Source: Alteribacillus sp. YIM 98480
GTDB taxonomy: Bacteria > Bacillota > Bacilli > Bacillales > Marinococcaceae
Length of the DNA stretch: 64,000 nt
Assembly: GCF_009765375.1 (NCBI RefSeq)
Contig: NZ_VTOK01000014.1
Span: 1 to 64,000, forward strand
Direction: 5' to 3'
The notes below the pieces were generated by a model. That model searched no databases and had not been told where the DNA came from. It saw only the letters and a program-made list of their open reading frames with translations. This document shows positions 12,752 through 20,791 of the stretch, in pieces (the stretch's first letter is position 1; every line of letters begins with the position of its first letter). The position numbers and the translations under genes are program-made.

Positions 12752-14158
12752 TTAAACTATTACGCCCACATCATTCCTCCATTGGTGATATCCACCAGAA
12801 AGATTAATTACATTCTTAATTCCTTTCGCTTGTAATACACTAGCGCCAATTGCTGAGCGTATTCCGGTACGACAGTGGAGAACAATTGGCTTGTCTATTG
12901 GAATCTCCTTCAATCGGTATGGAATGGTTCCTAGCATAATATGACGGGCTCCTGGAATCGATCCTTCCTCCCACTCACTCTGATTTCGAACATCAATGAG
13001 ATGAACTTTGTTTTCCTTAACTTCTTGATTAATTTTTGAGGGTTCTTCATTCTTATAACTTTCAAATAAGAAATCACCATTAAGTGCCGACTTTATATCC
13101 ACATATCCCTCTAATTGATCAATTCCAATTGAACGGAGGGAATGAACGATATTTTCAATATGATTTGGATCTGCTAAGAGGTACAAAGGTTTATCATAAT
13201 CTATTAGCCACCCGGCCCAGGTAAGGAATTGTTTGTAGGCATATGGAATATTAATTGTTCCCTGTATATGTTTATCTGCAAATTTTTTATAAGAACTCGT
13301 ATCGAGAATCTGAGCCTCTTCATTCAACAATTCTTGCAATTGTTCCGTTGGTATCTCTTTAGGAAACCCAAGGTCATCTAAAAGAATTGGACCTTCTTTA
13401 TTTATTTTTTTCATAATTCCGAAATATTTTGGTGGTTCGGGCTGTCCTTTCAGAAGAGCTTGAACAAAATCTTCTTCGTTGTTATATGATAAAGCTTTAT
13501 TAAATAATTTTTCATAACCAACTGTAGATGAAGGAACGGATCCTAGAGCCTTTCCACATGCACTGCCTGCGCCATGTGCAGGCCAAACCTGGAGATGGTC
13601 TGGTAGTTCTTTAAATTTTTTAAGTGAATGGTACATGGTCCTGGCCCCCTCATCAGCAGCACCCACTTCATCCGCTGCCTTTTCCAATAAATCAGGTCTT
13701 CCCACGTCCCCTACGAATACAAAATCCCCAGTAAAAATACCCATCGGTTGAGTAGCACCGTCTCCCTTATCAGTCAAAATAAAAGAGAGACTTTCAGGGG
13801 TATGCCCCGGTGAATGCATAACTTCAAAGAAGATGTTACCAATATTAAATTCGTCACCGTCTTTTAGATAACGAGTTTTATTGTTTTGATTTTTATAACT
13901 CCACCCATCACCACCTTCATCTGAAAGAAATAGTTCAGCCTGACAATCATTAGCCAATTCTCTTGATCCTGAAACAAAGTCGGCGTGAATATGGGTTTCC
14001 GCTCCAGCAATAATATTTAAACCTTCTGCCTTTGCCGCTTTTAAATAAGGAGTGATGTCTCTAGACGGGTCTATGATAATCGCCTCTCCAGTAGCTTGAC
14101 ACCCTACCATGTATGAAGCATGAGCTAAATTTTCATCAAAAAAATATCGAAGCAGCAT
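12752..14158 (-). CDS. CstB-like MBL-fold persulfide dioxygenase with two rhodanese domains
   Basis: A 468-residue fusion. The metallo-beta-lactamase domain (about 1-245) has THIHADF (His56, His58, Asp60), SPGHTPES and GDFVFVGDVGRPDL, as in ETHE1/CstB-type persulfide dioxygenases. A second region (about 270-360) looks like a rhodanese fold without an active cysteine. The C-terminal rhodanese (about 375-468) has the active loop HCRTGIRS with Cys429. This layout matches staphylococcal CstB, which oxidises persulfide and forms thiosulfate. The start is set by GGGAGG 8 nt upstream. It ends a minus-strand block with tauE, sqr and DUF1641, so it should take persulfide made by SQR. Confidence 0.88.
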   Translation of the reverse strand: MLLRYFFDENLAHASYMVGCQATGEAIIIDPSRDITPYLKAAKAEGLNIIAGAETHIHADFVSGSRELANDCQAELFLSDEGGDGWSYKNQNNKTRYLKDGDEFNIGNIFFEVMHSPGHTPESLSFILTDKGDGATQPMGIFTGDFVFVGDVGRPDLLEKAADEVGAADEGARTMYHSLKKFKELPDHLQVWPAHGAGSACGKALGSVPSSTVGYEKLFNKALSYNNEEDFVQALLKGQPEPPKYFGIMKKINKEGPILLDDLGFPKEIPTEQLQELLNEEAQILDTSSYKKFADKHIQGTINIPYAYKQFLTWAGWLIDYDKPLYLLADPNHIENIVHSLRSIGIDQLEGYVDIKSALNGDFLFESYKNEEPSKINQEVKENKVHLIDVRNQSEWEEGSIPGARHIMLGTIPYRLKEIPIDKPIVLHCRTGIRSAIGASVLQAKGIKNVINLSGGYHQWRNDVGVIV

Positions 14159-14183
14159 CCATTTGTCCTCCCTTTGGAAAAGT

Positions 14184-14744
14184 TTATTTCTTATGTTTTT
14201 CAGAGTAAACTTCTAGTAAAGCATGTACGTATTTCAACCCTTTTTGAACTTGGGGTTCTTTCAACCACTTTAATAATGTAAAAATAGATACCTGTTGATT
14301 ATCTTGTTCTGTTCTTTCCTTAGCCTCTTTAAGAGGACTAAAAATTGGAGTCGCCATTTCTTCCATTCCTTCTTTTATATAATCAAGAGAGTCGTCGTCT
14401 TGAAGAACATTCTTACCAAACTCCAATAAATCCTCTAATACAGAAACCACTTTTATTATATTCGGTAATTTCTTTATAAGGGTTGTCAATGAACGTAATG
14501 ATTCCTCATTTAGATGATAAGCCGATAATTCTTTACCTGCATTTCCGATAAATTTTTGTAAAGTTTCCTCGTCCTGAGAAACTGCTGCAACAAAATCAAT
14601 GGCCCGTTCTGAGAATAGAACAGCTTCTTTTATTCGCGGGAGCTTTTGGAGAAGTATAGTTAGGGATTCTTGTATTTCAGGATCAGACAGTTGTAATTCC
14701 CAATCAGATCTACTTTCATCTTTAAATGATTTAGTAACCGCCAT
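14184..14744 (-). CDS. DUF1641 domain protein
   Basis: A 186-residue soluble helical protein of the DUF1641 family (relatives YrhD and YjgD in B. subtilis), found beside sulfide:quinone reductases or formate dehydrogenases. It has repeated helical segments with LPRIKEAVLFSERAIDFVAA and LPNIIKVVSVLEDLLEFGKN, the duplicated family core. The ATG at 14744 follows TAAGGAGGAGAAAG and is preferred to an earlier in-frame start. It lies between sqr and the CstB-like gene with short gaps. The biochemical role is unknown. The conserved neighbourhood suggests an accessory function for the quinone reductase. Confidence 0.8.
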   Translation of the reverse strand: MAVTKSFKDESRSDWELQLSDPEIQESLTILLQKLPRIKEAVLFSERAIDFVAAVSQDEETLQKFIGNAGKELSAYHLNEESLRSLTTLIKKLPNIIKVVSVLEDLLEFGKNVLQDDDSLDYIKEGMEEMATPIFSPLKEAKERTEQDNQQVSIFTLLKWLKEPQVQKGLKYVHALLEVYSEKHKK

Positions 14745-14781
14745 CTTTCTCCTCCTTATCAAATTAGTAATAAGAATTTCC

Positions 14782-15978
14782 TTACATTACGCCTTTTAGC
14801 ATTCCATTCCAATAAATAAGAGGTAATAATTCTTTCTTGACAAGATACATGCTTCTGCGTTCTATTCCTTGGTCAACCGGAAAAGATTCTTGCGGTTCCA
14901 AATTATAGTCGAATTCAGCCATAATTAATCGATTATACCCAGTGACTAGTGGACAAGAAGTATAGCCATTATATTTTGCTTCTAATTCTTTTTCCTGCAT
15001 TAGCATTAAGAGGTTTTTTTCCACAACTGGAGCTTGTTTGCGAATAGCAGCACCTGTTTTAGACGTGGGTAAATTACTGCAATCTCCAATCCCAAATACA
15101 TTGGAATAACGCTTATGTTGTAATGTGTACTGATCTACATCCACCCAGCCGCTCTTATCTGCTAATGAACTATTTTTAATAAAATCGGGTGATTCCATCG
15201 GGGGAGTAACATGAATCATGTCATACTTTAAAACTTCTGTCTCTTTCGTTTCCATGTGTTCAAACACTGCTTCTTTCTGGTCAGGAAGGATTTCAACAAG
15301 ATTTTTCAAATAATTTACCTTGATATTTTTGCGATCAATGACTTTGTTGAGAGCATTTGCATACTTTTCAACTGCAAATATAGCTCCTCCCGCATGACGG
15401 AAAATAATTTCAGATTTATCTCTAACTCCAGATTTACGAAAATAGTCATCGGCTAAATACATTATTTTTTGAGGTGCCCCTCCACATTTGATTGGTGTAC
15501 TTGGGTGAGTAAAAATAGCGTTTCCACCCTTGAATTTACGGATAGCTTCCCACGTATACTCAACATGTTCAGCAGAATAATTACTACAAACTCCATTTTT
15601 GCCAAGTGACTCTTCAAGGCCTTTTATGCCCTTCCAATTAATTTGCAACCCTGCTCCCATTACTAGATAATCATACTTAATTTGTCTCCCGTCATCTGTA
15701 ACTACCCTATTTTCTTCTGGTCTCACTTCTGCCACAGCGTTCTGTATCCAATCTACTCCCTTTGGAATTAAAGACTCCATAGAGCGCACGGAATCCTCTT
15801 TTTTAGCTGCACCTCCACCAACTAGAGTCCACAACGGTTGGTAATAATGTTTTTTTGCAGGATCAATAATTACCGTTTGATCTTTCAATGCTTTAGAAGC
15901 TCTGACTAATCTTGAAGCAACAGATATGCCTGCGGTTCCTCCTCCTACAATAACTACTTTGTACTCTTTTTGATCCAT
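14782..15978 (-). CDS. sqr: Sulfide:quinone oxidoreductase
   Basis: A 398-residue FAD flavoprotein that oxidises sulfide to persulfide/polysulfide and reduces membrane quinone. The dinucleotide fold VVIVGGGTAGIS is at about 8-19, with a second GAG loop near 108-111. Cys131, Cys165 (HPSTPIKCGGAPQK) and Cys342 correspond in order to the catalytic cysteines of SQR. NVFGIGDCSNLPTSKTGAA near 294-311 is the FAD-binding segment. The ATG at 15978 follows GAGGAGGTAAAAGTA; an in-frame ATG 25 codons upstream has no comparable site. It acts at the inner face of the membrane, feeding electrons to menaquinone and persulfide to the downstream dioxygenase. Confidence 0.9.
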   Translation of the reverse strand: MDQKEYKVVIVGGGTAGISVASRLVRASKALKDQTVIIDPAKKHYYQPLWTLVGGGAAKKEDSVRSMESLIPKGVDWIQNAVAEVRPEENRVVTDDGRQIKYDYLVMGAGLQINWKGIKGLEESLGKNGVCSNYSAEHVEYTWEAIRKFKGGNAIFTHPSTPIKCGGAPQKIMYLADDYFRKSGVRDKSEIIFRHAGGAIFAVEKYANALNKVIDRKNIKVNYLKNLVEILPDQKEAVFEHMETKETEVLKYDMIHVTPPMESPDFIKNSSLADKSGWVDVDQYTLQHKRYSNVFGIGDCSNLPTSKTGAAIRKQAPVVEKNLLMLMQEKELEAKYNGYTSCPLVTGYNRLIMAEFDYNLEPQESFPVDQGIERRSMYLVKKELLPLIYWNGMLKGVM

Positions 15979-16109
15979 TACTTTTACCTCCTCAATTTTT
16001 ACTCTTGAACTGTAAATCGTATTACTAAAGGACTGACCTTGTTTATCATTCAAACCATAAAAACTTTAAAATATCATGGTTCCAATTGCTGATATTTGCT
16101 CTTTAAACT

Positions 16110-16889
16110 TTAGCTAATAATATCAAACCAAATTTTAATAGCTGTACCGAGAATTAAAATTGCTAACATTCCCCGTAATACCATACTATCTACTTTTTTG
16201 CTTAGATTAGCTCCTAATGGTGATGCTAGAATGCTAGCAACAATCATAATCAACGCTGGTATATATAGAACTTGATTTGTCATGACTTTTCCAACTGTTG
16301 TTCCTATAGAAGATATAAATGTAATCGCTAATGAGGTTGCAATGGTCATTTTAGTAGGAATTTTCAACACTACTAACAGAACGGGAACGAGAATGAAAGC
16401 TCCTGCAGCTCCAACAATTCCAGCAGAAGCTCCTATGATGAGAGCGAGAATGGAAGCTAGTATTTTGTTATAAGTCACTGGTTCATGAGGAATATGATCT
16501 AACCCTTTTTTAGGAAATAACATCATTACAGCTGCGATCGTTGCTAATATGGCATATGTAAAATTAATTTTTTCTACCGTTAAATACTTAGAACCATATC
16601 CTCCGATAAAGCTCCCAATGAGTATGTTTGTACCCATAATAAGTATTAAGCTTTTATTTAAGTAATTTTCTTTTCTAAAAGCCCATACCCCTGCGATTGA
16701 AGCAAATAACACTTGAACCGCACTAATTCCAGAGACCTCGTGAGCATTAAAAGCTATAAAACCTAGAAAAGAAGGAATATATAAAAGCATTGGGTATTTA
16801 ATTATAGATCCACCAATCCCCAGCATTCCTGAAATAAAAGAACCTACAAATCCAATAGCAAATATAAGTATTACAAATGAAAGGTCAAT
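16110..16889 (-). CDS. TauE/SafE-family sulfite/sulfur-anion exporter, probable ATT start
   Basis: A membrane permease of the TauE/SafE (DUF81) family, related to YrkJ. From 16889 it is 259 residues, the normal length, with about eight spans and duplicated GxIGxxxSGxLGIGG-type motifs. The first ATG (16826) would begin at MLGIGGSIIKYP and remove most of the first helix. The frame stays open upstream and encodes LIDLSFVILIFAIGFVGSF. The codon matching the usual Met is ATT (16889), with GGTGTGAT about 9 nt before it and an in-frame TGA three codons upstream. Either ATT initiates, or the start codon was lost by mutation. The probable role is export of sulfite or thiosulfate from sulfide oxidation. 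Confidence 0.8.
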   Translation of the reverse strand: MDLSFVILIFAIGFVGSFISGMLGIGGSIIKYPMLLYIPSFLGFIAFNAHEVSGISAVQVLFASIAGVWAFRKENYLNKSLILIMGTNILIGSFIGGYGSKYLTVEKINFTYAILATIAAVMMLFPKKGLDHIPHEPVTYNKILASILALIIGASAGIVGAAGAFILVPVLLVVLKIPTKMTIATSLAITFISSIGTTVGKVMTNQVLYIPALIMIVASILASPLGANLSKKVDSMVLRGMLAILILGTAIKIWFDIIS

Positions 16890-17155
16890 TAGTAATCACA
16901 CCATTCAAACTAAAGTAATAGTCACTACAGCAACGAACTGGGCTCAATGGTTTTCTAATTCCTCTGTATCACGATAATGCTTATATATTGTTGGTTATGG
17001 TTTCCATATGTTCACCATTCCCTCTAGAACTTCCTACTGGCAGTTTCTTAAAACGATTTTTTCACCTCCTGTAGAACTTCTCCTCTCTATTAACATAATC
17101 AGCAAACGGACAAGCGGCTATTAAAAACTCATTGTGCACATTTCATGAATTCCTA

Positions 17156-17176
17156 TTGTATACGATGTGTATATTA
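17156..17176. promoter_or_regulatory. TTGTATAC-type dyad site (copy 2)
   Basis: TTGTATAC-N4-TGTATATTA, differing from the site at 11421-11441 only in the central bases. It lies about 270 nt upstream of the tauE-sqr block. The identity of the binding protein is inference only. Confidence 0.35.
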
Positions 17177-17291
17177 CTATTTTGAGAATTTTTTGTCAAC
17201 AACGAACATTTGAATCATTCATAATTTACTAAAAATAATGCAGAGGAGTTTAAGACTATTTTATTCGATAAATATACAACTCTTTAAAAAT

Positions 17292-17335
17292 AAAAAAAAA
17301 GCTCCGTACTAATGCAAATTCCTTTTGCAGCGAGG
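17292..17335 (-). terminator. Possible intrinsic terminator
   Basis: On the minus strand TGCAAA pairs with TTTGCA and outer CTC with GAG, followed by CTTTTTTTTT. The stem is imperfect. It would separate the TusA block from tauE. Confidence 0.35.
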
Positions 17336-17451
17336 AATTAAGTAGAAATAAAATTTACTTGAATGAATTTCATAGAAATATAAGAACCAATGAATCATAT
17401 AGGAAAAGAACGACAATAAATAAAAACGCTATAATAATTTATCTCCTTCAT

Positions 17452-17475
17452 GAAAAGAGACCCATCAAATGGGCC
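17452..17475 (-). terminator. Intrinsic terminator of the yrk-like block
   Basis: On the minus strand GGCCCAT-TTG-ATGGGTC is followed by TCTTTTC, just after the tusA stop codon. The opposite strand also has a T6 run. Confidence 0.55.
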
Positions 17476-17479
17476 TTTT

Positions 17480-17707
17480 TTATGCTTTTCTAATCCAGAA
17501 TTTTAGTACATCATCTTCCTCTGTGTCTTTCAACAGCTCGTGTCCACTGGATTTCGTCCAAGCAGAGAGGTCACTTTTTGCTCCTTTATCTGTGGCATGG
17601 ACTTCCAGGATGTCCCCTAAATTCAGCTCTTCCATTGCTTTTTTTGTTCTTACAATCGGCATTGGACATGCCAGCCCTTTTGCATCTAATAATTTTGTTG
17701 CTTCCAT
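17480..17707 (-). CDS. yrkI: TusA-family sulfur carrier protein
   Basis: A 75-residue single-domain TusA/SirA-like protein with the family signature LDAKGLACPMPIVRTKKAM. Cys14 in the ACPMP loop carries the persulfide sulfur. Length and fold are typical, and it is close to B. subtilis YrkI. It starts at ATG after GAGGAGG. It is the last gene of the yrk-like block, 25 nt after the rhodanese-MBL gene. A second TusA domain is fused to a rhodanese two genes upstream, so this block carries two sulfur-relay carriers, probably passing persulfide sulfur between rhodaneses and the dioxygenase. Confidence 0.9.
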   Translation of the reverse strand: MEATKLLDAKGLACPMPIVRTKKAMEELNLGDILEVHATDKGAKSDLSAWTKSSGHELLKDTEEDDVLKFWIRKA

Positions 17708-17732: not shown

Positions 17733-18863
17733 TTATCCTTCTACCGCACAGCGGTTTGGACCTGTTTCCATTACTTTTTGATCTTCTGGTTCCGGGGTGA
17801 TTTTACCCATGTTTGTTTTACGGATATCTTCATATGCATTAGGCTGCGGCGGAAGGTTTTCGGTCACCATCTTTCTAAATTCATTTTCATTTTCCACCTG
17901 CAGCCCGGAATTTCTTAGATAAAGATCTCCTAGACGGGCAGAGACGCTTCCGCCTTTGCCCAGCTCGTCAGCGAAAGAATAGTGAGCTGGCATAACAATA
18001 AGATCGTCGGAAAGGTTTTTATAACGACTGTAAAGCGTGTGACGCAGATCTTCTACCCAGTCTTCTGCTTTTCCTGAAAGATCTGGCCGTCCGATTGATT
18101 TCACAAATAAAATGTCACCAGTCAGTAAATATTTGTCATCTACAATGAAGGAAGTACTCCCAACCGTATGACCTGGAGAATAAAACGGCTGAACTTTAAT
18201 TGCTGTATTGCCTACTATAATATCGTTACCTTCTTCCAAAGCCGCATAATCAAACGTTACCTCTGTGGCATCTTTTTCTGGAAGATAATACGTTCCCCCA
18301 GTTTTTTCAGCCAGCTGAAGACCGCCTGAAATATGATCCGCATGCAGGTGAGTATCGATCGTATATTTGATCTTGACGCCTTTTTCTTCTGCAAATCTTT
18401 CATACACATCAATCATCCGGTTTGCATCGACAACAGCTGCCTCCCCGTTGGATTCAATGAAATAGGACAAGCAACCTTTACCTAAACGGACAAACTGATA
18501 AATACTTCCACCGTCACTCAAATCACTGATTTTAACAGGCTCTAGATGTTCACTCCATGCTTTCATGCCGCCTTCAAGACTGTAGACGTTTGAGAAGCCT
18601 TCTTCTTCGAGCATATCTGCTATCATTTTGGAAGAACCGCCTTTGGCACAAACCACGATGATTTCCTGGCTCTTTTGGATTTTTCCTACAACAGCATCGA
18701 CACCATCTAGTAAGTTGAAATAAGGTTCGTTTACGACTTCAACGTTTCCGCCTTCAATTTTCCAATTATCAAATTCATCCGTGTTTCGAACATCTAAAAT
18801 AAGTGTGTCTTCATGATTGACGATTTTTTTCGCCAAATCTTTTGTGCTCAATATTTTTGTCAT
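17733..18863 (-). CDS. yrkH: Rhodanese / MBL-fold persulfide dioxygenase fusion
   Basis: A 376-residue protein with the reverse domain order of the CstB-like gene at 12752. The N-terminal rhodanese (about 1-108) has the active loop [10 protein letters not shown] with Cys72. The MBL domain (about 120-376) has [11 protein letters not shown] (His172, His174, Asp176, His177), SPGHTVGS and [15 protein letters not shown], which are ETHE1-like metal ligands. It resembles B. subtilis YrkH. It is predicted to oxidise protein or low-molecular-weight persulfides, with sulfur delivered by the fused rhodanese or neighbouring TusA. The start follows GGGAGGG. The cell thus has two MBL-rhodanese fusions in 6 kb. 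Confidence 0.88.
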
Positions 18864-18928: not shown

Positions 18929-19501
18929 TTAGTTGTTTTTCTCCGTTGGACCGTCCCATTCTGTCATACCTGGGACGACATTTTTTACCTTTTGAAACCC
19001 TTTTTCGGCTAGCTTTTGAGAGGCCAAATCACTGCGGCTTCCTGTCCGGCAGATCACGTGAACATCTTTTTCTTTATCCATTTCATTGATGCTCTCTTCA
19101 AGTTCATTAAGCGGAATATTGACTGCACCTGGAATATGACCAAACGCATATTCAGCTGGCTCCCGTACATCCAGAATAGTGATTTCTTCATTGTTTTCTA
19201 TTTTGCTGTGCAGTTCTGTCAAATCGATTACATCTTCATATTTGGTTTCTTCTTTGGTTTCCTCTTCACTCGCTTTCCGCACGTAATGTTTGAGGACATC
19301 TCCCTCTTCAACAGTTCCGAGATATTGATGGCCGGTGCTTTCCACCCAGGCTTTTAAATCTGCTGTGGATCCTTTATCTGTAGCCTGCACTTCCATCACC
19401 TGACCAGGTTTTAAATCTGTCATAGCTTTTTTTGTACGGACAATTGGCATCGGACATGCCAAACCTTTCGCATCTAATATTTCATTTGCGGTAATGTTCA
19501 T
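18929..19501 (-). CDS. yrkF: TusA-rhodanese fusion sulfurtransferase
   Basis: A 190-residue two-domain protein. The N-terminal TusA domain (1-75) has LDAKGLACPMPIVRTKKAM with Cys16. A short acidic linker, EETKEETKYED, leads to a rhodanese (about 90-190) with IPGAVNIPLNEL and active loop VICRTGSRS, Cys151. It matches B. subtilis YrkF and the TusA-rhodanese part of staphylococcal CstA. It probably relays sulfane sulfur between a persulfide donor and downstream enzymes. It starts at ATG after TAGGAGGG. It lies between the single-domain rhodanese and the rhodanese-MBL gene in one transcription unit. Confidence 0.9.
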   Translation of the reverse strand: MNITANEILDAKGLACPMPIVRTKKAMTDLKPGQVMEVQATDKGSTADLKAWVESTGHQYLGTVEEGDVLKHYVRKASEEETKEETKYEDVIDLTELHSKIENNEEITILDVREPAEYAFGHIPGAVNIPLNELEESINEMDKEKDVHVICRTGSRSDLASQKLAEKGFQKVKNVVPGMTEWDGPTEKNN

Positions 19502-19529: not shown

Positions 19530-19853
19530 CTACCCAATGAGCTTGCCGCCATTTACATTTGTGACGATATATTCTTTTTCTGTTAAAAATTCACCGGCCT
19601 TTCCGTATCTTCCACCTGAACGGCATACGATATAATAATGCTGGTTTCTATCGATTTCACCTAAACGATCAAGAATCTCAGCAAGCGGTATATGACGTGC
19701 TCCAGGAATTTTCCCATGCACTACTTCATTATTTCCACCGACATCGATGACATGGACATCTTCTCCATTTTTTATTTTTTCAGCTAATTCATTTGTTTTA
19801 GCCTCTTTCGTAATTCTCTCTTCTCCTATTTTTTGATATAATTCCTCAGTCAT
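19530..19853 (-). CDS. Single-domain rhodanese-like sulfurtransferase
   Basis: A 107-residue rhodanese with the fold signature VIDVGGNNEV, HGKIPGARHIPLAEI and the active loop YIVCRSGGRYGKAG (Cys77). The first half (EELYQKIGEERITKEAKT) is a helical lead-in. The ATG at 19853 is chosen over the GTG just before it; the ribosome site GGAAAG is weak. It has its own promoter and a CstR-like operator 20-40 nt upstream, in addition to the promoter of the gene before it. It probably works with the TusA proteins in persulfide sulfur transfer. No substrate can be inferred. Confidence 0.85.
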   Translation of the reverse strand: MTEELYQKIGEERITKEAKTNELAEKIKNGEDVHVIDVGGNNEVVHGKIPGARHIPLAEILDRLGEIDRNQHYYIVCRSGGRYGKAGEFLTEKEYIVTNVNGGKLIG

Positions 19854-19870
19854 CACTTTCCATCATAGGA

Positions 19871-19916
19871 ATACCTGTATAGGTATTTTATAATGCAAAA
19901 ATTTTTAGATAAACAA
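19871..19916 (-). promoter_or_regulatory. Promoter with CstR/CsoR-like operator upstream of the rhodanese gene
   Basis: On the minus strand a -35 TTGTTT (19911-19916) and -10 TATAAA (19887-19892) are 18 nt apart. They are followed directly by the operator at 19871-19886, ATACC-TATACA-GGTAT on this strand, with perfect 6-nt arms. The same ATAC-N8-GTAT layout occurs at 20415 and 20768. This is typical of CsoR-clade persulfide sensors (CstR). Confidence 0.6.
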
Positions 19917-20384
19917 TGTTATATTTCCATCTTCTGATTCTCCAATATAGGCGGCTACTCCACCGTAATCTATCCCATCTATCAGTTCATCTTTTTGAAG
20001 ACCGAGTAAATCCATCGTCATGGTACATGCCAGCAATTTAATATCCTGCTCGTGCGCCATATCCACTAATTGAGGAAGAGGCATTGCATTATGCTTTTTG
20101 ATTACATTTTTTATCATTTTAGGACCGATTCCCAAATAATTCATTTTGGAAAGCCCCATTTTATCCGCGCCTCTTGGCATCATTTTCCCAAACAGTTTTT
20201 CCAAAAGACCTTTTTTGACAGGGACCTGATTATCTTTTCGAAGCGCATTTAATCCCCAGAAAGTATGAAAAATGGTCACCTCATGATCATAGGCGGCCGC
20301 CCCATTTGCGATAATATAAGCAGCCATCGTTTTATCATAATCACCACTAAACAAAATAATTGTCGTTTTCTTTTTCTCCGTCAT
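19905..20384 (-). CDS. yrkE: DsrE/DrsE2-family sulfur relay protein
   Basis: A 159-residue protein of the DsrE/DsrF-like (DrsE2) family, with TTIILFSGDYDKTMAAYIIA at the start, a Rossmann-like core, and a conserved cysteine in the LLACTMTMDLLGL segment that should carry sulfur. It is close to B. subtilis YrkE. The ATG at 20384 follows TAGGAGGG and is preferred to ATGs 7-8 codons upstream. It is the first intact gene of the yrk-like block and follows a CstR-like operator at 20415-20430 and the broken repressor gene. It probably exchanges persulfide sulfur with TusA and rhodanese partners. Confidence 0.88.
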   Translation of the reverse strand: MTEKKKTTIILFSGDYDKTMAAYIIANGAAAYDHEVTIFHTFWGLNALRKDNQVPVKKGLLEKLFGKMMPRGADKMGLSKMNYLGIGPKMIKNVIKKHNAMPLPQLVDMAHEQDIKLLACTMTMDLLGLQKDELIDGIDYGGVAAYIGESEDGNITLFI

Positions 20385-20414
20385 AAAAATTTCCCTCCTA
20401 CACATCATTTACAT

Positions 20415-20430
20415 ATACTTGTATGGGTAT
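20415..20430 (-). promoter_or_regulatory. CstR/CsoR-like operator upstream of yrkE
   Basis: ATACTTGTATGGGTAT read on the plus strand, a 16-nt imperfect dyad with ATAC and GTAT ends separated by 8 nt, 31 nt upstream of the yrkE start. It lies between the broken cstR-like gene and yrkE. Confidence 0.55.
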
Positions 20431-20450: not shown

Positions 20451-20685
20451 CTAATTACTTGCTTTTACCAAAAGATCAACTGCTTCTCTTATAAGTTTTT
20501 CGGATCTTTCTCCATTTTCCTTCTCTTCACAAATACAGTGTTCAAGATTCTTGCTGACAATTATTGTAGCTGTACGATCTAAAGCACTTCTTACTGATGT
20601 TACCTGGGTGATACGTCTCGGCAATCTTTTTCTTCTTCCATCCTTTTTAACAAACCTCTAACTTGTCTTTCACTTCTTTATCAAA
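20451..20685 (-). pseudogene. cstR: Broken CstR-like (CsoR/RcnR family) persulfide-sensing repressor
   Basis: Reading the minus strand in pieces gives FDKEVKDKL, then RGLLKRMEEEKDCRDV, then TQVTSVRSALDRTATIIVSK and NLEHCICEEKENGERSEKLI up to LLVKASN and a stop. Together these are a CstR protein with both sensing cysteines (KDCRDV and NLEHC). About 20-26 nt coding KRIEGQV are missing between two ACAAGTTA-like words, and one base is missing after CRDV, so no frame runs through. A good ribosome site (TAGGAGGAA), promoter and operators remain upstream. The repressor is therefore predicted to be inactive unless another copy exists in the genome. Confidence 0.8.
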
Positions 20686-20693
20686 TTCCTCCT

Positions 20694-20711
20694 ATACCCC
20701 CCCCTTTGTAT
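20694..20711 (-). promoter_or_regulatory. CstR-like operator overlapping the cstR ribosome-site region
   Basis: ATAC ends and GTAT ends separated by ten bases including a run of eight C. It has the same half sites as the 16-nt operators but a longer centre, possibly a C-run expansion. Confidence 0.4.
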
Positions 20712-20762
20712 ATTTTTTATTTATAGCGGCGTGATGAATGGTTGTTTTTAAATACAGCATTC

Positions 20763-20791
20763 ATAATATACCCCCTCGTGTATTTTGTCAA
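20763..20791 (-). promoter_or_regulatory. Promoter of the broken cstR-like gene with operator in its spacer
   Basis: On the minus strand TTGACA (20786-20791) and TATTAT (20763-20768) are exactly 17 nt apart. The spacer contains ATACACGAGGGGGTAT (20768-20783), an ATAC-N8-GTAT operator. A repressor bound there would block RNA polymerase, as for autoregulated CsoR-family genes. Confidence 0.7.

Follow-up and report, generated by a model that had tools for sequence, protein, structure and literature searches.

What governs a block of sulfur genes once the repressor gene at its head has broken down? The question is raised by the draft genome of Alteribacillus sp. YIM 98480 (33 contigs, 4.58 Mb), where the window, the whole 64,000-nt stretch of DNA analysed here, forms the start of contig 6. 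Its minus strand carries a yrk-type block in the order cstR remnant, yrkE, small rhodanese, yrkF, yrkH, yrkI, tauE/yrkJ, SQR-like, DUF1641 and PDO-rhodanese. Two congeners (G001 and G002) and Alteribacillus iranensis (G015), of the same family as the window species, were among the genomes compared. The genes below the remnant are as follows.

19905..20408, minus strand: yrkE (DsrE family), open (ORF and comparison with relatives)
19530..19856, minus strand: small rhodanese gene with a frameshift near its 3' end, last residues missing (comparison with relatives)
18929..19501, minus strand: yrkF (TusA and rhodanese), open (ORF, relatives, domain search)
17733..18863, minus strand: yrkH (rhodanese and metallo-beta-lactamase fold), open (ORF, relatives, domain search)
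17480..17707, minus strand: yrkI (TusA), open (ORF, relatives)
16110..16877, minus strand: yrkJ (TauE) homologue (homology)
14782..16053, minus strand: sulfide:quinone reductase-like gene, open (best model SQR_III_seleno, under its cut-off)
14184..14762, minus strand: DUF1641 gene, open (ORF, domain search)
12752..14158, minus strand: open gene of CstB-like layout (Lactamase_B and Rhodanese domains), which we take from that layout to be a persulfide dioxygenase-rhodanese

A sequence-only reading of this stretch had described a CstR-like persulfide repressor gene destroyed by two small deletions, of about 20-26 nt and of one base, with both sensing cysteines kept, and had proposed looking for an intact gene in sister strains. 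Comparison with relatives places intact cstR orthologues directly upstream of yrkE in G002 and A. iranensis, at the position of the window gene, and alignment with them resolves the following lesions.

20451..20691, minus strand: cstR/yrkD pseudogene remnant, three pieces in three frames (alignment with the G002 and G015 orthologues)
20667..20668, minus strand: junction of a 22-nt deletion, most parsimoniously the loss of codons 9-15 and one base of codon 16 (alignment)
20610..20614, minus strand: single missing base, codon 35 (alignment)
20689..20691, minus strand: position of the lost start codon, reading GAG, with an in-frame TAG at 20692-20694 (alignment)
20451..20624, minus strand: residual 3' open frame of 57 aa, without the DNA-binding helix and the first cysteine (ORF)

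Relative to both orthologues, 22 nt are gone at one place and 1 nt at another, so that the gene survives as EFDKEVK, QVRGLLKRMEEEKDCRDV and TQVTSVRSALDRTATIIVSKNLEHCICEEKENGERSEKLIREAVDLLVKASN followed by its stop, in three frames; the exact junction of the larger gap is ambiguous, and MAFFT divided that gap differently. The two deletions are therefore as described, and to them is added a third lesion that had been overlooked: with GAG at the start position and an in-frame stop directly before it, the start codon is lost too. The 3' boundary at 20451 stands, and the remnant reaches 20691 and not 20685. The identity of the gene is not in doubt. Its C-terminal piece matches Pfam PF02583 at 32.9 bits against a cut-off of 22.8, over profile positions 33-77 only, so the resemblance is not by chance. 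Of the loci compared, the block CstR of A. iranensis comes nearest to the 3' piece (78% over 50 aa), ahead of that of G002 (71%) and of a second copy in the window's own genome, on contig C19 (54%). Members of the CstR/YrkD family have two sensing cysteines and lack the CsoR-type His four residues before the second. Both cysteine codons (at the C31 and C60 positions) are indeed preserved in the remnant, within EKDC and NLEHC, and the CsoR-type His is absent; an extra cysteine lies two residues past the second sensing Cys, where G002 and G015 have Arg. The DNA-binding element of the family is the basic helix KNRxKRIEGQ, which the window gene no longer has: R10, R13 and G16 are invariant in 66/66 intact relatives (65 named and G002), and residues 9-15 are absent from the window copy. 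With start and frame lost, no functional repressor can come from this gene, and the alignments show the local CstR/YrkD repressor gene to be a recent pseudogene.

Could an intact gene merely look broken through an error of sequencing or assembly? The assembly is a 33-contig draft and a single-base error could account for the smaller gap. However, a 22-nt gap together with a replaced start codon is untypical of read errors, there is no homopolymer run at either gap, and the start of the contig is 20 kb away; an artefact is thus very improbable. As to how the larger deletion arose, slippage between ACAAGTTA-like words had been proposed. This was rejected as unproven, as 20600-20720 contains one exact ACAAGTTA (20666-20659) and the sole other word within two mismatches is AGAAGTGA at 20677-20670. 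The one GACAAGTTA agrees with the right-hand segment that was kept (codons G-Q-V-R, with Q17 invariant), and an origin on the left side would give D-K-L at positions 9-11, where relatives have N in 64/66 and R in 66/66. A short microhomology at the deletion is possible. An eight-G run, a possible slippage site, lies at about 20697-20704, just upstream of the lost start codon.

The remnant also bears on when the gene was lost. When 150 nt of the 3' piece are compared by codon position (1/2/3), the window and G015 differ at 8/2/24 sites, the window and G002 at 10/5/25, and G002 and G015 at 6/3/28. The dominance of third-position changes points to selection having acted on the window cstR through most of its history, and to a recent break. 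Relaxed constraint was considered as a proof of age and set aside as weak, the counts of conserved columns contributing little. Departures number 6 in 26 conserved columns of the window copy, where 66 intact copies average 0.98 and reach at most 5 of 32; two of the six departures lie at the extreme C-terminus, and F3 and T39 are seen in relatives as well, which leaves only M24R and A40S special to the window copy.

It would be natural to ask whether the upper block is itself decaying, the loss of the repressor being one step in the loss of an operon and not a change in regulation. The sulfide-oxidation genes downstream had been called intact, which holds for yrkE, yrkF, yrkH, yrkI, the SQR-like gene, DUF1641 and the PDO-rhodanese gene, all open, and not for three others. 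Compared with two relatives, the small rhodanese gene is one base short, net, close to its 3' end and ends prematurely; homology of tauE extends beyond its first ATG/GTG/TTG codon (16826), with no such codon upstream in frame, a rare start being possible; and the second, small DsrE gene that G002 and A. iranensis have is missing from the block. Moreover, the congener G001 has no yrkE, and cstR remnants occur without yrkE in two other genomes (G009 and G037). Against these signs stand the seven open frames and a YrkE that is 84-90% identical to its closest relatives among the matches listed, and decay of the block appears distinctly unlikely as the explanation. Between yrkI and tauE, about 600-620 bp (16826-17479) hold no long frame, where G002 has about 50 bp. 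No second full copy of this 620-bp stretch was found in the five genomes searched, which gave only a 76% match at the corresponding position of G002 and, at another place in the window's own genome, one of 47 bases. Further, no close homologue of the SQR-like gene turned up in the two congeners and two Alteribacillus-group genomes searched, which suggests a separate origin for the SQR-DUF1641-PDO end of the block (12752-16053).

If the frames are largely kept, so are the elements that could switch them.

20763..20791, minus strand: promoter-like site of the block, TTGACA-17 nt-TATTAT, 11/12 matches, best of 6 sites
20768..20783, minus strand: operator-like site ATACACGAGGGGGTAT within the promoter spacer, 1 mismatch (motif search)
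20410..20430, minus strand: operator-like site ATACCCATACAAGTATATGTA preceding yrkE; its own genome has no other exact match to TACCNNTACNNGTANNNGTA; 1 mismatch to ATACC-N6-GGTAT
19866..19886, minus strand: operator-like site ATACCTATACAGGTATTCCTA preceding the small rhodanese gene; its own genome has 2 exact ATACC-N6-GGTAT sites, of which this is one; against the 20-bp form it has 1 mismatch

The motif search thus shows the promoter and three candidate operator sites of the block to be retained, the number of promoter-like sites (6) being not above that in shuffles (mean 4.3, sd 2.5). The operator-like motif was taken as the dyad ATACC-N6-GGTAT with at most one mismatch, within 120 nt upstream of a gene. 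It stands before yrkE in 62/66 loci with an adjacent cstR, in 8/8 with cstR within 10 kb and in all six where CstR is only remote, against 0.27% of 4000 shuffles. The 20-bp form TACCNNTACNNGTANNNGTA is not universal, A. iranensis having none at one mismatch or fewer. In the window's own genome, three motif searches returned 2 matches against 5 for the backward-read control (forward), 6 against 12, and 5 against 6; as the motifs are not above these controls, the argument for operators rests on place and conservation and not on excess.

Operators beside a dead repressor gene do not by themselves imply lost control, and the genome holds a candidate for their reader. A search of the genome for another CsoR/CstR homologue, proposed in the sequence-only reading, returned two intact PF02583 genes. 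The first has the CsoR-type His and adjoins a gene that looks copZ-like by eye. The second, on contig C19, is of CstR type: an open frame of 86 aa with a full-length PF02583 match (91.6 bits), both cysteines, Asn at the position, four residues ahead of the second Cys, where CsoR has His, and 0 departures at 32 conserved columns. NCBIfam profiles gave no match at cut-off on the CstR-type proteins, and none of the models listed is named CstR. The C19 protein is 97% identical to its orthologues in both congeners, where its neighbours, by eye a sigma/anti-sigma pair and a rhomboid gene, are conserved, and shares no more than 64% identity with the CstR of the A. iranensis block. A candidate operator-like site, ATACAGCAAAAGGTAT (1 mismatch), begins 34 nt upstream of its start codon. 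The corresponding sites have 1 mismatch in G002 and 2 in G001, and in two genomes of other genera (G010, locus L007, and G023, locus L010) the orthologues flanked by these neighbours have best sites with 4 and 3 mismatches. Since G001 keeps the C19-type gene without any yrkE, the ancestral job of that gene is something else. An intact homologue elsewhere that binds these operators had been named as what would overturn the claim of a natural loss-of-repressor case; of its two parts, the intact homologue is present and the binding is a prediction, and of the claim itself the death of the local gene stands.

We regard control of the block in trans by the C19 paralogue, with the local gene recently dead, as the likeliest arrangement, at about an even chance. 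By inference from YrkD of Bacillus licheniformis and CstR of Staphylococcus aureus, the reduced paralogue would sit on the block operators; sulfane sulfur would modify its cysteine pair, and its release would let the block be expressed. A paralogue already covering the operators may then have let the local cstR decay. In favour of C19 control we count the intact, conserved paralogue, its own upstream site, the sites kept at yrkE and two results from the survey of relatives, namely a case in Neobacillus cucumis and a count of ten genomes. Against it count the recent loss, an imperfect and non-conserved C19 site, the motif background, the 64% identity, the absence of yrkE from G001, and a precedent from Thermus taken up below.

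The survey covered the yrkE loci of the best 80 of at least 516 relatives, the window's own record possibly excluded. Among these 80 named loci, 66 have a CstR match within 3 kb upstream of yrkE, where the window gene also lies; 65 are full length and one is broken. The remaining 14 have no CstR in a 6.5-kb stretch, and each of these genomes carries one elsewhere: in 8 it lies no more than 10 kb from yrkE, and in 6 there is only a remote one (more than 70 kb away or on another contig). Neobacillus cucumis V32-6 (L132:1-305, NZ_PGVE01000071.1) resembles the window in that its cstR is broken and the adjacent yrkE intact; its promoter and operator-like site are retained, and another contig carries an intact CstR. 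Its lesions differ from those of the window, so the event is independent. The loss is not unique to the window species. A limited literature search met no natural cstR loss in print, which is no proof of absence. As separate observations, cstR remnants with stop codons lie in G009 (L258:5308-5560) and G037 (L259:4970-5200), both without a yrkE match, and at G021:C33:111342-111834 yrkE is in two overlapping pieces with stops inside the second.

By a hand count, the yrkE genomes without an intact CstR within 10 kb (the window's own, N. cucumis, the six remote-only genomes, G028 and G033) all have a remote CstR-type gene (10/10), that of G028 being less sure in type because it lies in a 171-aa frame with two matches. 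Among genomes with a local CstR, 13/34 also have a remote one (14 if the contig-end case, G020, is counted). The difference gives p ~0.0005-0.0008 by hand if genomes are independent, which they are not, and the two groups come from different surveys. A remote gene was taken as truly so when more than 10 kb from yrkE, on another contig, or in a genome without a strong yrkE match; of the 38 CstR-type genes whose surrounding stretch showed no yrkE, 12 turn out to be no more than 10 kb from it, and one (L025, G020) is probably a local gene cut off by a contig end, so that 25 qualify. Ten of these 25 have a site with at most one mismatch in the 120 nt upstream (shuffles: 0.46% of 6150), including the C19 gene, that of G002 and 4/6 in remote-only genomes, and 15 have none, including 2/6 in remote-only genomes. 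This is suggestive of remote CstR copies reading the same motif as the block.

It had been proposed earlier that the block may now be constitutive. Under a true loss of repression, no other protein would occupy the operators and the block would run constitutively from its consensus-like promoter, much as though yrkD had been deleted in nature. The retained TTGACA-17-TATTAT promoter fits such an outcome, as does the laboratory deletion of yrkD in B. licheniformis, after which the uninduced sqr transcript rose 87-fold (PMC9918477). Moreover, since the loss is recent, the operators may simply have had too little time to decay and their persistence proves little, and the C19 gene has a weak site that two syntenic orthologues do not conserve. 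Yet an intact CstR-type paralogue is present, and all ten yrkE genomes without an intact local CstR own a remote one. Constitutive expression is thus possible without being the best-supported reading, and we consider it rather unlikely beside control by the C19 paralogue.

Should the C19 paralogue control the block, a more general course of events may be imagined, in which remote CstR paralogues captured the yrk block in several Bacillota lineages, the local repressor decaying while the operators stay selected, with the window species and N. cucumis as two independent cases caught mid-way. We offer such a recurrent takeover tentatively, and would sooner doubt than trust it. Overall, the finding is an ordinary pseudogene with a modest, testable hypothesis of regulatory rewiring. 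If the remote paralogue controls the block, the locus would be a compact natural example of a paralogous repressor making the local one dispensable; if it does not, the strain would be a natural one in which the sulfur block is expressed constitutively.

Finally, the locus may be set against known systems. CstR of S. aureus, a protein with sensing cysteines C31 and C60 that represses cstA, cstB and sqr, shares this cysteine pair with the window remnant, its own gene being intact (PMC5480029). The form TACCNNTACNNGTANNNGTA resembles the site TACNNTACNNNNGTANNGTA of Thermus TTHA1953, with a different spacing; TTHA1953 and TtCsoR scarcely bind each other's site, a precedent for related regulators differing in operator (PMC10318464). 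The fullest parallel is YrkD of B. licheniformis MW3, the CstR-like repressor of an 11-gene yrkD-yrkE-...-sqr-pdo cluster (PMC9918477). Unlike there, the window repressor gene is broken, a DUF1641 gene lies between sqr and pdo, and the tauE-sqr gap of only 56 bp leaves no nreBC between them. YrkD binds at two places, ahead of its own gene and in the interval from there to yrkE (PMC9918477), and the two main operator-like positions of the window correspond to both in place. Common to both clusters are a repressor gene before yrkE and, beyond it, yrkE, yrkF, yrkH, yrkI, yrkJ, sqr and pdo.
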